A stretch of 64,000 nt of DNA, taken from positions 1-64,000 of the forward strand of contig LADP01000016.1 of NCBI GenBank assembly GCA_000961575.1. The letters are read 5' to 3'. Below the pieces are notes generated by a model. That model did not search any database, was not told the DNA's origin, and was given only the letters and a program-made list of their open reading frames with translations. A program made the translations under genes and the position numbers. Shown one piece after another: positions 45,798 through 50,480 of this stretch; position 1 is the stretch's first letter, and the number at the start of each line of letters is the position of its first letter. This DNA comes from Peptococcaceae bacterium BRH_c8a (lineage in GTDB: Bacteria; Bacillota; Desulfotomaculia; Desulfotomaculales; Desulfallaceae).

Positions 45798-45854
45798 TGT
45801 CATCCTGAGCGTTAGCGAAGGATCTTAAGATTCTTCACTTCGTTCAGAATGACA
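45798..45854. repeat. Dispersed palindromic repeat, copy 9
   Basis: Complete copy between paaK and the ACT-domain gene. Confidence 0.88.
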
Positions 45855-45875: not shown

Positions 45876-47174
45876 TTACAATTCCCGCTTATCGATTACA
45901 CGCTTGGCTTTGCCTTCGCTGCGCGGGATAGTGCGCGGTTCCACAAACTTAAGGCGCGCTGAGATGCCCAGTACACTTAAAATGCGGCCCCGTATTTTAT
46001 TTTCCAAGTCCTCCAGGGCTCGAATTTTATCCGAAAAGAACTTATCGTTTAATTCCACCCAAATTTCCAGGTTGTCCAGCGAGCCTTTACGATCGACCAC
46101 CAACAGGTAGTGCGGTTCGGTATCGCCAAACTCCAATAATACGCTTTCGATTTGGGACGGGAATACGTTGACACCACGAATGATGAGCATATCGTCGGTG
46201 CGCCCGGTAACCCTTTGCATCCGCACGAATGTTCGCCCACAACCGCAGGTATCCTCATTTAGCACGGTGATGTCCCGGGTGCGATACCTGATGATAGGCA
46301 GGGCTTCCTTGGTCAGTGAAGTGATTACTAATTCCCCCGGTTGGCCGTAAGGTAGTTGTTTACCGGTTTCGGGATCGATAATCTCCGCCAAGAAGTGATC
46401 TTCAAATATGTGCATACCCTTTTTCTCCGGGCATTCCATGGAAACGCCCGGCCCGATAACCTCGCTGAGGCCGTATATGTCAAGAGCTGTAATATTTAAT
46501 TTTGCTTCCAACTGCTCCCGCATGCGCTCACTCCAAGGTTCGGCGCCAAATATGCCCACCCGTAGTTTCAGATTTTGCAGGTCGATTCCAGCATTGTGTA
46601 TCTCTTCACCCAGGAAAAGAGCGTAAGATGGGGTGCAGGTAAGGATGCTGGTGCCGAAATCCTGCATTAGCATCAGTTGACGGGCAGTATTGCCCCCCGA
46701 AATCGGAACCACTGTGGCACCCATGCGCTCAGCGCCGTAATGGACACCGATACCGCCGGTAAACAGGCCGTATCCGTATGCATTTTGTAACACGTCTTTT
46801 TTGCTGCCACCAGCCATGACTATAGCACGGGCCATCAGGTCGGCCCAGGTGTTGATATCTTTTTTAGTATAACCAACCACAGTTGGTTTGCCGGTAGTGC
46901 CGGAGGAGGCGTGCAGCCTGACCACCTCGTCCATAGGAACGGTGAATAAACCGAAGGGGTAATGATCACGCAGATCCTGTTTCACTGTAAAAGGCACTTT
47001 TTGTAGGTCGGCCAGTGATTTTACATCGCCGGGTTGTATCCCTGCCGCATCGAATGCTTGGCGGTAGAAAGGAATTTTGTCGTAAACACGCTGCAAGGTT
47101 TGCTGCAGCCGTTGTAACTGTAATTCTTCCAGTTTGTCTCTGGTAATGGTTTCATATTCTTCTTGCCAGTACAA
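45876..47174 (-). CDS. paaK: Phenylacetate-CoA ligase
   Basis: PaaK activates aryl-acetates such as phenylacetate with ATP and CoA. The 432-residue protein has the adenylate-forming motif [28 protein letters not shown], and the FRMEETRG-like [10 protein letters not shown] segment with the C-terminal [21 protein letters not shown]. It has the family's typical short length. Start TTG at 47174 follows AAAGGGGTAAAGCG. It is compatible with fermentation of aromatic amino acids via indolepyruvate oxidoreductase, which is not in the window. Confidence 0.93.
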
Positions 47175-47453
47175 CTCGCTTTACCCCTTTCGATATTCGC
47201 GCTTTTAAAAAAGAATAGCATAACTTGGATATAAAAAAAAGAGTTTTTAGTCGTAAATAGAAGTGTTAGTGCTGAGCAAGCATGAATAAACCCAAAATTT
47301 AAGATCTCTGCGACAGATTTATTTTGTTAGAGTCAGCAGAATTATGTCGAACCGTACAACCCGCTAAAAATGGGCGTTCGACAAAAAACGTCATTCGCAA
47401 ACATAAATTATCACCCACAGGATAAACCCTTCTCAATAAAGTTATTAACAGAC

Positions 47454-47471
47454 TTATCCACATTATCCACA
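47454..47471 (+). promoter_or_regulatory. Two adjacent perfect DnaA boxes
   Basis: TTATCCACATTATCCACA is two abutting copies of the consensus TTATCCACA. Confidence 0.7.
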
Positions 47472-47628
47472 GCAGTCAATTTGTTAATGCTCTACAATAT
47501 TACTATAGCGAGCAAAATACAGGTATTCAGATATATAATTTTTTTGCCTGTTCAGGCACATTGTTGTGTTTTATAAGCATAAATTGTAAATATATTCCAT
47601 ACGGTGCTTGGTGTGGTGTGGGTATATT

Positions 47629-47637
47629 TGTGGATAA
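47629..47637 (-). promoter_or_regulatory. Perfect DnaA box, opposite orientation
   Basis: TGTGGATAA, the inverse of TTATCCACA, 158 bases from the adjacent pair. Confidence 0.6.
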
Positions 47638-47650
47638 AAGTTATTAAGAC

Positions 47651-48673
47651 TTAATAACGGTCTTGGCCCAGGGGCAGGCCGGGAACGGCATTTAAGGACA
47701 GGGGCGCAAAATCGCCGCGCCGGTATTTGTAATAAGCAGCGCAGGCAATCATAGCGGCGTTATCTGTACATAATACCAGGGGTGGATTAATAAGCCGTAA
47801 ACTGTTATCAATCGCCCGGGCACTCAGTTGCTCCCGCAGCAATTTGTTGGCCGCAACGCCGCCGGCCAGCATGATAGTTTGGGTATCGTGGCGTTTGGCA
47901 GCGACAAGTGTTTTATCCACCAGCACGTCAACCACTGCCTGGCGAAAACTGGCCGCTACGTCAGCGTGATTGACAGCCTCCCCCCTTTGTTGAGCCCGAT
48001 GCAGGTAATTGATTACCGCCGTTTTTAGGCCGCTAAAACTAAAATCAAGGCTATCCTTTTCAAGATAAGACCGGGGCAGGGTAATCGCGTGCGGGTCACC
48101 GGTTTCGGCAAGCTTGTCCACCAGCGGGCCACCCGGGTAGCCCAGACCGAGCACTCTGGCAACTTTATCAAAGGCTTCTCCGGCGGCATCGTCACGGGTG
48201 GCACCAAGCAACTTATATTGTCCTGGCCCGTGCATCAGTAATAAATCAGTATGCCCGCCGGAAACCACCAGGCAAATCAGGGGAAAACCCGGATCTGGCT
48301 CTACCAGCAGGTTGGCAAACACATGCCCTTCCAGATGGTTAACCCCCACCAGAGGTATGTCCAGACCGAAAGAGATTGACTTGGCCGCCGCCACCCCTAC
48401 CAGCAGAGCGCCCACCAGGCCCGGCCCGTAGGTTACCGCCACGGCATTAAGGTCGGCAAAATTTAACCCGGCCTGATCCAGAGCTTCTTGGATGACATTG
48501 TTTATTAACTCCAGGTGTTTACGTGAAGCCACTTCAGGCACCACGCCGCCAAATTTACTGTGAATATCTACCTGGGAGGAAATGACATTAGACTTGATTG
48601 CACGACCGTCAACCACCACGGCCGCTGAAGTTTCATCACAAGATGTTTCGATACCCAGAATTATTACACTCAT
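47651..48673 (-). CDS. tsaD: tRNA N6-threonylcarbamoyladenosine synthase subunit TsaD
   Basis: TsaD (Gcp/Kae1) transfers threonylcarbamoyl to A37 of ANN-decoding tRNAs. The 340-residue protein has GIETSCDETSAAVV at the N-terminus, the metal-binding HLEGH, and LAGGVAANKLLREQL. The ATG at 48673 is chosen because GGAGG lies upstream; an in-frame TTG at 48691 overlaps that site. TsaB, TsaC and TsaE are not in the window. Confidence 0.95.
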   Translation of the reverse strand: MSVIILGIETSCDETSAAVVVDGRAIKSNVISSQVDIHSKFGGVVPEVASRKHLELINNVIQEALDQAGLNFADLNAVAVTYGPGLVGALLVGVAAAKSISFGLDIPLVGVNHLEGHVFANLLVEPDPGFPLICLVVSGGHTDLLLMHGPGQYKLLGATRDDAAGEAFDKVARVLGLGYPGGPLVDKLAETGDPHAITLPRSYLEKDSLDFSFSGLKTAVINYLHRAQQRGEAVNHADVAASFRQAVVDVLVDKTLVAAKRHDTQTIMLAGGVAANKLLREQLSARAIDNSLRLINPPLVLCTDNAAMIACAAYYKYRRGDFAPLSLNAVPGLPLGQDRY

Positions 48674-48773: not shown

Positions 48774-49484
48774 TTGCATGTTACTTTTCTCAGTTACAAT
48801 ATCAGGCACTGCCGGGGTACTGGCGGCAGGGTGTCCCTTGCTGCGGTGGCCGCATCTATTACCGGCACCGGGGCCGATGTGGTGGGGTTGCAGGAGGTGG
48901 ATAAGTTTAACCCCCGCAGCTGTTTTGTCAACCAGGCGCGCAAACTGGGCGAGCTAACAGGTATGAGTGCGGTGCTGGGCGCCAACTTTAATTTGCTGGG
49001 GATTGCCGAATTTGGTAATGCAGTGCTTACCCGTTATCGGGTAATGGATGAGCAAAATTTTCCCCTGCCCGGGCGGGGAGAAAAAAGGGGACTGCAAAGG
49101 ATCGAAATATGTACGGGTACCGGTAGCATCGCCTTTTATAACACCCACTTGGGCTTGGACAAAGATGAACGTCGCCATCAGGTAGAGCGAATTTTGACCA
49201 TCACCAAAGACGAAAAGATGCCCCTGGTGCTGGCCGGAGATTTTAATGCCCTGCCCCGGGCAACTGAAATACAGGAACTAAAAAAGGTATTTGCACTATC
49301 TGATCCGTCAGGTTCCTATCCTACATTTCCAGCACAGCAACCGCAGCACAAAATAGATTACGTGTTTTTTTCCCCCCACTGGCTGCCGTTAGCATACCAG
49401 GTTTATTATAGTGAAGCCTCGGATCACCTACCGCTGGCTGTAAAGCTGCGCCTCGTTGGAGACAATCCGACAATAACTATTTAG
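48774..49484 (+). CDS. Endonuclease/exonuclease/phosphatase-family protein
   Basis: About 236 residues of the EEP fold. Hallmarks are SYNIRHCRG near the start, LQEVDKF for the metal-binding Glu, the LAGDFNALP active site near residue 158, and a C-terminal SDHLPL histidine block. The start is uncertain: TTG at 48774 fits the family start and has AAGGGTG upstream, while a GTG at 48765 is possible. Substrates could be nucleic acids or phospholipids. The gene ends exactly where a MITE-like element is inserted. Confidence 0.85.
   Translation: MHVTFLSYNIRHCRGTGGRVSLAAVAASITGTGADVVGLQEVDKFNPRSCFVNQARKLGELTGMSAVLGANFNLLGIAEFGNAVLTRYRVMDEQNFPLPGRGEKRGLQRIEICTGTGSIAFYNTHLGLDKDERRHQVERILTITKDEKMPLVLAGDFNALPRATEIQELKKVFALSDPSGSYPTFPAQQPQHKIDYVFFSPHWLPLAYQVYYSEASDHLPLAVKLRLVGDNPTITI
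49477..49484. repeat. Target-site duplication, left (CTATTTAG)
   Basis: CTATTTAG is repeated at 49715-49722 and contains the stop codon of the upstream gene. Confidence 0.6.
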
Positions 49485-49714
49485 TGTCTCCTGAAAAAGT
49501 CTTGGTAAGGGGTTTGGTGTTAATCTCCGGGTTACTACTCGCCGTTATGCTTGAGCGAGCTCGTTCGTCCTCGGGCGCCGGAGAACTCGCGCCCTGCGGG
49601 CGCTCAGACATGCACCGGCGCTTTTCCTCGGACTCTCACGCTCTTTGATTTAAGCTCCTACGTAACCCTCCGATTAACACCAAACCCCAGTTATGCTTAG
49701 TTTTTCAGGGGACT
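49485..49714. mobile_element. 230-bp MITE-like element with long terminal inverted repeats
   Basis: The left end starts TGTCTCCTGAAAAAGTC and the right end, read inward on the other strand, starts AGTCCCCTGAAAAA; both continue into GGGGTTTGGTGTTAATC, so the inverted repeats span about 50 bases each. There is no ORF. An 8-bp direct repeat CTATTTAG flanks it. Shorter relatives are at 23361-23418 and 30560-30612. It is probably moved in trans by a transposase not in the window. Confidence 0.8.
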
Positions 49715-49722
49715 CTATTTAG
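49715..49722. repeat. Target-site duplication, right (CTATTTAG)
   Basis: Second CTATTTAG copy; it overlaps the Sir2 stop codon on the minus strand. Confidence 0.6.
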
Positions 49723-50480
49723 GTTTTTACCGTCGGTGGTAAACCAAGTTCGGCCAAGATATCTGTAAACACCCGCCCGGCGTTCTCGTTAATGACCACG
49801 GCGGCGGCATCGTCCAGCGGTGTTGGAGTGCGGTTAATGATTACAAATTGCCTCGCCACTTCGGGCAAACCGGCCACCGGGTAAACGGTGAGGCTGCTGC
49901 CGACCACTAACATTAACTGGCATCCGGAAATAACCTGGGTGGCCTGATAAAAGTCCTCGTTCATTTTATCTTCAAATAAAACTACGTTGGGGCGTAAAAT
50001 ATCCGAGCACTTCAGGCAACGTGGCGGGTTTTCTCCGGATCGAAACTTTTCTACCAACTGTTCAAAGGGATAGCCATCGCGACAACTCATGCAGCGGGCG
50101 GTGCGCAAATGGCCGTGTACTTCCCAGACCCTATTGGACCCTGCTTTAACGTGCAGGCCGTCTATATTTTGGGTAATTACGCCCAACAGCAGGTTTTGTT
50201 TTTCCAACTGGGCCAAAGCGAAATGCGCGGGGTTGGGACAGGCGTCGCAATAAGCAGTCCAGCGTTCCAGGTTCGTTTTATAGAAGCCGGCCGGATCACT
50301 GCGCAAGGCTGAAAGACTGGCTGCTTTAATCGGGTCGAACTTTTCCCATAAACCTGTGCCCGGGCTACGGTAATCCGGGATACCGCTTTCGGTGCTTATT
50401 CCTGCCCCCGTAAGGGCCAGGGTCTTGGTGGATTCTTTAATCAACCGGGCGGTGAGTTTTATCTTTTCATAGTATTCCAC
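49719..50480 (-). CDS. NAD-dependent protein deacylase, Sir2 family
   Basis: Sirtuins remove acetyl or succinyl groups from lysines using NAD. The 253-residue protein has GAGISTESGIPDYRSP, TQNIDGLHVKAG and the HGH catalytic histidine, plus a zinc site of two CxxC pairs (CMSC, CLKC). GTG at 50480 has GGAGGG seven bases upstream. It could reactivate acetylated acetyl-CoA synthetases encoded here, which carry the conserved PKTRSGK lysine, but this is inference from known AcsA biology. It is convergent with the EEP gene. Confidence 0.93.
   Translation of the reverse strand: MEYYEKIKLTARLIKESTKTLALTGAGISTESGIPDYRSPGTGLWEKFDPIKAASLSALRSDPAGFYKTNLERWTAYCDACPNPAHFALAQLEKQNLLLGVITQNIDGLHVKAGSNRVWEVHGHLRTARCMSCRDGYPFEQLVEKFRSGENPPRCLKCSDILRPNVVLFEDKMNEDFYQATQVISGCQLMLVVGSSLTVYPVAGLPEVARQFVIINRTPTPLDDAAAVVINENAGRVFTDILAELGLPPTVKT

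Follow-up and report, generated by a model that had tools for sequence, protein, structure and literature searches.

A conserved DnaA-box cluster 3' of tsaD, away from oriC, as a probable DnaA-holding site in a Peptococcaceae bacterium

We begin by considering the DnaA-box clusters that have been described away from oriC. The closest is the gcp/ydiF cluster of Bacillus subtilis, which lies between the converging gcp and ydiF genes, holds 10 sites and is given in PMC4447404 as a top DnaA-binding site, with a Kd of 0.15 uM with ATP-DnaA and a 16-fold preference for the ATP form at 55 nM. The same source reports that DnaA regulates several genes adjoining its B. subtilis clusters, and the removal of six clusters outside oriC is reported to cause early initiation in this species (PMC5295017, PMC13220808). 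The datA locus of Escherichia coli is also a DnaA-box cluster away from oriC and was regarded in early studies as a sink for DnaA. It is described as needing IHF and promoting ATP hydrolysis (PMC5295017, PMC13220808). DARS1 and DARS2 of E. coli are likewise non-coding DnaA-box elements away from oriC, whose activity is the reactivation of ADP-DnaA. PMC13220808 states that B. subtilis lacks IHF, datA and DARS.

The DNA analysed here, called the window below, is a 64,000-nucleotide stretch of Peptococcaceae bacterium BRH_c8a. The features of the gap between tsaD and a paaK-like gene are collected in Table 1; both genes lie on the minus strand and are therefore co-directional, with 476 bp between them. 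A sequence-only reading had picked out three perfect DnaA boxes in this gap, two of them abutting and the third inverted, and had put the chance expectation at roughly half a copy in 64 kb. The three exact matches to TTATCCACA are indeed there, on the strands and at the spacing claimed (from 47471 to 47629), and the computed expectation is 0.49 copies per 64-kb window (sd 0.73). With up to two mismatches allowed, the gap holds six box-like sites, three perfect and three weak. The 3' end of tsaD is the anchor of the cluster, and the neighbour on the paaK side varies among relatives.

Table 1. Features of the tsaD-paaK gap and its two flanking genes, in positions of the window
Feature	Position	Strand	Remark
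Conserved core block GTTATTAACAGACTTATCCACATTATCCACAG, 32 bp	47441..47472	+	holds DnaA boxes 1 to 3, all in one orientation, with start-to-start distances of 12 and 9 bp
Box 0, weak TCACCCACA	47411..47419	+	
Box 1 TTATTAACA	47442..47450	+	two mismatches to TTATCCACA
Box 2, perfect TTATCCACA	47454..47462	+	
Box 3, perfect TTATCCACA	47463..47471	+	abuts box 2
AT-rich element between the arms, tsaD-strand reading TATTTTGCTcgcTATAGTAATATT	47496..47519	-	family alignment (16 members), by eye
Weak outer box ATACCCACA	47617..47625	-	12 bp from outer perfect box
Outer inverted box, perfect TTATCCACA	47629..47637	-	156 bp from core, adjoins tsaD stop
Spo0A-box core TGTCGAA	47345..47351	+	matches TG[TA]CGAA
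Spo0A-box core TGTCGAA (TTCGACA on +)	47377..47383	-	matches TG[TA]CGAA
tsaD (gcp), tRNA t6A synthesis	47651..48670	-	NCBIfam TIGR03723, 446.7 bits against a cut-off of 296.1
paaK-like phenylacetate-CoA ligase	45876..47174	-	TIGR02155, 619.4 bits, slightly below the cut-off of 646.3

The number of boxes alone is only mildly unusual, because at least three exact copies anywhere in 64 kb are reached in 3 of 100 shuffles; what counts is their clustering. The whole draft genome (4,174,027 bases in 48 contigs) contains 57 exact copies of TTATCCACA and 29 of the reversed control word. The three closest pairs of exact boxes in the genome are all at the tsaD site, the next closest pair being 1285 bp apart; of 20000 simulations that placed 57 positions at random, 1 brought three starts into a span of 175 bp. 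In being a cluster of several DnaA boxes outside oriC, and in lying 3' of gcp (= tsaD), the site resembles the gcp/ydiF cluster of B. subtilis.

Other contents of the gap were considered. An RNA element was rejected, no Rfam family being matched at E up to 1 in 46900-48000, and so was a promoter or terminator as what the gap contains, the promoter-like sites numbering 2 (2.3 expected in shuffles) and the terminator-like sites 1 (0.5 expected). The AT-rich element between the arms appears in the family alignment as TATTTTGCT-like, in the form TATTTTGCT...ATAGTnATATT. Outside the gap, nested inverted repeats at 49472-49727 (one pair of 27-nt arms matches at 89% across a spacer of 126 nt, another pair of 27-nt arms at 78% across 202 nt) resemble a small mobile palindromic element, and a short palindrome at 45814-45839 sits within a TGTCATCCTGAGCG...GAATGACA stretch that resembles a dispersed repeat.

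The next question is whether the cluster is conserved at this place. The tests that are free of motif choice are those that start from tsaD, and for these we sampled, from TsaD, the loci of the best 30 of 41 relatives and of 27 further genomes out of 149 of the phylum, together with 20 distant genomes hand-picked to spread over families. In the 400 bp past the tsaD stop, at least two boxes with at most one mismatch are found in 30 of these 30 relatives (best 30 of 41) and in 20 of the 27 phylum genomes; before the tsaD start the corresponding counts are 0 of 30 and 2 of 27. Among the distant genomes, 13 of 20 have at least three boxes in the 950 bp at the tsaD 3' end and 1 and 3 have them in the next two intervals, while for at least two boxes the counts are 13, 5 and 5. 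Shuffles that keep the dinucleotides give, on average, 0.24, 0.22 and 0.75 loci with at least two boxes for the 30 relatives, the 27 phylum genomes and the 20 distant genomes respectively. The tsaD 3' flanks that have no cluster amount to about 14 of 77.

The core block itself, with its rigid spacing, is carried with 0 to 4 mismatches by all 30 relatives (best 30 of 41) and with at most 8 mismatches by 17 of the 27 further phylum loci. The 481-bp gap, used as a DNA query, found matches in 35 of 41 genomes; most of them span a stretch of 67 bp, and a genome often has two. In these 35 the core was matched, at one or both loci, over 62-100% of its length with 88-100% identity. The position of box 1 is occupied in some other genomes by TTATTCACA, TTATACACA or TTATGCACA, and ACCCACA at -28 from the core, which is box 0, is the top enriched flanking 7-mer of the tsaD-type blocks (27 of 57 representatives). 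A strict form of the block pattern is found in 98 of 398 phylum genomes and its reversed form in 0. In the subset of 149 genomes, 31 have the core 18-308 bp after tsaD. Because the loci L046-L127 were selected by the block pattern, a conserved core is built into that set.

Orientation is conserved as well. The core and tsaD are on opposite strands in all 64 deduplicated loci examined, and in every one of the 30 relatives (best 30 of 41); in the distant set, 66 of the 77 boxes are opposite tsaD too. The sequence-only reading had named a lack of conservation in sister strains as a refuting result, and the comparison within genus, family, order and phylum gave no such refutation. This conservation makes it close to certain, as far as sequence conservation can speak, that this is a functional DnaA-binding cluster. 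The gap query gave no DNA match in six of the 41 genomes (G016, G020, G021, G030, G031, G035). Five of these (G016, G020, G021, G031, G035) are near-complete genomes of the same order, and the element is therefore dispensable there. Records titled Candidatus Aerophobetes, which are metagenome bins, carry the block 3' of tsaD in L080, L088 and L091 and elsewhere in L114. If the names of the bins are correct, the block is either older than the phylum or was transferred. A record titled Sumerlaeota (L098) is a contig of G064, which is filed in this phylum.

We return to the comparison with B. subtilis. The window cluster is smaller than the gcp/ydiF cluster, with three perfect and three weak boxes, and contains a rigid 32-bp block; it also lies upstream of a co-directional gene, paaK, and not between two gene ends. 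Converging ends are a trait of the gcp/ydiF locus and not of all B. subtilis clusters. The protein YdiF we take to be an ABC-F protein, and two Bacillus-like genomes, G143 and G176, likewise have an ABC-F gene that converges with tsaD. The interval contains 4 boxes in G143 and 9 in G176 (at most one mismatch), of which 3 and 6 are opposite tsaD. In G176, the abutting boxes TTATCCACT-TTATTCACA followed by G are close to the core, and a 12-bp pair is present as well. The window cluster thus occupies the same locus as the B. subtilis gcp cluster. The two probably share an ancestor. The sequence-only reading had proposed a DnaA titration or regulatory site of the datA/DARS type. Its first part is supported by conservation, in 30 of 30 relatives (best 30 of 41) and in many distant genomes; for the second part, the B. 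subtilis clusters offer a closer comparison than datA or DARS.

A more specific kinship with datA or DARS would make the site a nucleotide-switching platform, at which a looped complex changes the ATP or ADP form of DnaA. A loop would be possible given the inverted arms, since 10 of the 16 family members have a tsaD-sense box at a distance of 154-158 bp from the core. The other 6 members differ in this spacing or have no such box, and among the 30 relatives (best 30 of 41) a tsaD-sense box with at most one mismatch between the stop and the block is found in 21 and not found in 9. The absence of IHF, datA and DARS from B. subtilis, as stated in PMC13220808, also speaks against such a platform, and we consider it very unlikely.

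The sequence-only reading had also placed the boxes outside any recognisable oriC, which is right: dnaA is on another contig, C8, flanked by dnaN and, in the other direction, by rpmH, rnpA, yidC and jag, names that we assign from gene order and sequence. The genome's own DnaA is intact and NCBIfam-confirmed. The gaps of this dnaA-linked oriC (L005 8393-8616 and 9949-10246) have one perfect box, fewer than the tsaD site, and also hold three boxes with one mismatch. An oriC in this phylum would be expected to adjoin dnaA/dnaN, and the tsaD site does not; in 102 loci with the block or near it (L046-L127, L225-L244), dnaA and dnaN gave no strong match, the one weak match being at 23% in L121.

A relic or secondary replication origin had been suggested for the site. 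The cumulative GC skew of the window is lowest near 48-50 kb, together with a change of gene direction, on a contig (C7) whose chromosomal position is unplaced in the draft, and this minimum and the AT-rich DNA between the box arms would fit an origin. The chromosomes that are available as single contigs speak against it. In these genomes (G009, G013, G022, G039) dnaA is less than 2 kb from the start of the sequence. In G013 the skew is positive in the 9 stretches sampled from 0 to 1.96 Mb and negative in the 11 from 2.16 Mb on (one stretch has a G+C of 0.17 and is perhaps partly masked), and the tsaD site, at 2.198 Mb, is at the switch from plus to minus opposite dnaA. In G022, 10 positive stretches from dnaA to mid-chromosome are followed by 10 negative ones. 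The turn from minus to plus that is typical of an origin was not seen at the equivalent sites of G013 and G022, in 20 stretches each. With dnaA and oriC on C8, and with no strong dnaA or dnaN match at the block loci, a relic or secondary origin is rejected on gene context and skew, and we regard it as extremely improbable.

The same gene context separates the site from the basal unwinding system of oriC, which consists of DnaA boxes, a spacer and DnaA-trios. Tandem DnaA boxes are common to both. The tsaD site, however, is away from dnaA, and the bases after its boxes, where DnaA-trios are expected, vary among loci. On the conservation of these bases, an origin-unwinding module was rejected.

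We turn our attention to a second copy of the block. In the draft genome it is at C21:140989-141049 (about 4990-5050 of L026, minus strand), with one mismatch, between comFC and csp-hpf-secA, and it carries a Spo0A-box core at +68. A scan of 84,980 species genomes with the strict pattern gave 52 stretches, of which 24 are after tsaD, 19 have comFC, csp, hpf or secA in the locus, 2 more are placed by flagellar neighbours in what is probably the same comFC/csp region, and 7 are elsewhere. At the second site the strand of the block is that of csp, hpf and secA in all 38 readable loci. Blocks at other places were seen in L083, L085, L086, L094, L097, L114, L121, L227 and L228, some of them near sigH-like, murT-like, glyS-like and murC-like genes (by eye), and in the related genomes G123 and G157 near a DUF1294-like gene; they are possibly transfers of the element.

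Of 42 csp-type loci, 29 carry TTCGACA at +66 to +69, counted from the first base of the core; 2 have it at +57/58, and 11 lack it there. It is the top enriched 7-mer of all at these loci, in 30 of 39 representatives where 0.23 are expected, the representatives having been chosen by ungapped identity, a weak filter. Csp-type loci fetched later have it at +67 to +69 in 11 of 15, a set in which L239 repeats L098 (same contig) and three come from one genus. The composite of the block and the Spo0A-box core recurs in many families, and we found no description of such a composite in the literature, among the matches listed. The Spo0A-box consensus is TG[TA]CGAA according to PMC4285127, and TTCGACA is a putative Spo0A site by virtue of this consensus, with which the window cores at 47345 and 47377 also agree.

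These cores raise the thought that Spo0A may compete with DnaA at the blocks, or assist it, and would in this way couple replication to the entry into sporulation. The near-fixed position of TTCGACA at the csp-type loci, the two cores beside the window block and a Spo0A gene in 17 of 18 genomes would fit, and B. subtilis Spo0A is reported to bind oriC and to inhibit the binding of DnaA there (PMC4285127). At tsaD, however, only 13 of 64 loci, the window included, have a core within 150 bp, and the 17 genomes with Spo0A include five relatives that have no block match. A junction of this kind is quite unlikely to be what the blocks are for. Loss of the block in step with loss of sporulation was rejected, Spo0A being present in these five near-complete blockless relatives. 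The Spo0A boxes that adjoin the window block suggest, from their sequence, an added role.

Control of transcription is another reading, in which DnaA would regulate a neighbouring gene as it does at sda and other B. subtilis promoters: paaK in the case of the window block, csp-hpf-secA in that of the second. The window block lies upstream of paaK, and at many csp-type loci clear sigma-A-like promoters can be made out by eye in the interval that separates the block from csp. Spo0A-box cores are near both blocks, and regulation of several genes adjoining its clusters is reported in PMC4447404 for B. subtilis. The block, however, tracks the 3' end of tsaD while the far neighbour varies (paaK, an ACT protein, 5-formyl-THF ligase, radical SAM and others), and in the Bacillus-like loci and B. 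subtilis the cluster has a gene end on either side. The csp promoter is at a varying distance from the second block, the block stays where other genes have been inserted before csp (L093, L078), and the promoter-like sites of the window gap are no more numerous than in shuffles (2 against 2.3). We consider this reading unlikely.

The explanation that we prefer, with a probability of about 0.6, is that the site is the local version, in the Desulfotomaculum group, of a cluster outside oriC, conserved 3' of tsaD in much of the phylum, that holds DnaA away from oriC, by analogy with the B. subtilis clusters. What is observed is a set of rigidly spaced, co-oriented boxes opposite tsaD and a weaker inverted arm; place and orientation are deeply conserved, and nothing ties the site to dnaA. 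According to this model, DnaA, probably in its ATP form as at the B. subtilis gcp cluster, would bind boxes 2 and 3 first and then extend over boxes 1 and 0, perhaps as far as the inverted arm. Each copy of the site would hold several DnaA molecules, keeping the DnaA available at oriC low until enough has accumulated, and the copying of the site soon after initiation would add binding capacity and delay the next round.

The positions of the two blocks bear on this timing. The csp block is 131-666 kb from dnaA in 7 genomes and the tsaD block 267-2196 kb in 10 genomes (some lengths are rounded in both), and in all six genomes with both placed (G009, G013, G022, G039, G150, G087) the csp block is the nearer one; it might serve as the early-duplicated partner. 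The tsaD site is at 0.82 (G009) and 0.90 (G013) of the half-chromosome from oriC, so that it would be copied late in these two genomes and make a poor early sink. A gene for YabA is present in all 6 genomes examined for it, which means that other controls of DnaA exist and counts against the titration reading.

A wider form of the model, which we offer tentatively and think doubtful, takes the blocks at tsaD and at comFC/csp-hpf-secA as a two-site control of DnaA throughout the phylum that predates the split between the Bacilli and Clostridia types and may reach the Aerophobetes. The Spo0A box at csp would then let Spo0A set how much DnaA is held, tying replication to sporulation.

DnaA-box clusters outside oriC are known mostly from two model species, and the role of those in B. 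subtilis is a matter of debate. Should the tsaD cluster be one and the same element throughout the phylum, selection has kept it in its place for far longer than the regulation of a single species would require, which argues for a core role. The block at csp-hpf-secA, with its Spo0A box at a nearly constant distance, would offer a concrete case in which a connection of the initiator with the sporulation regulator can be tested outside oriC. The arrays beside tsaD in many distantly related members of the phylum suggest an old and little-studied control of the timing of chromosome copying.
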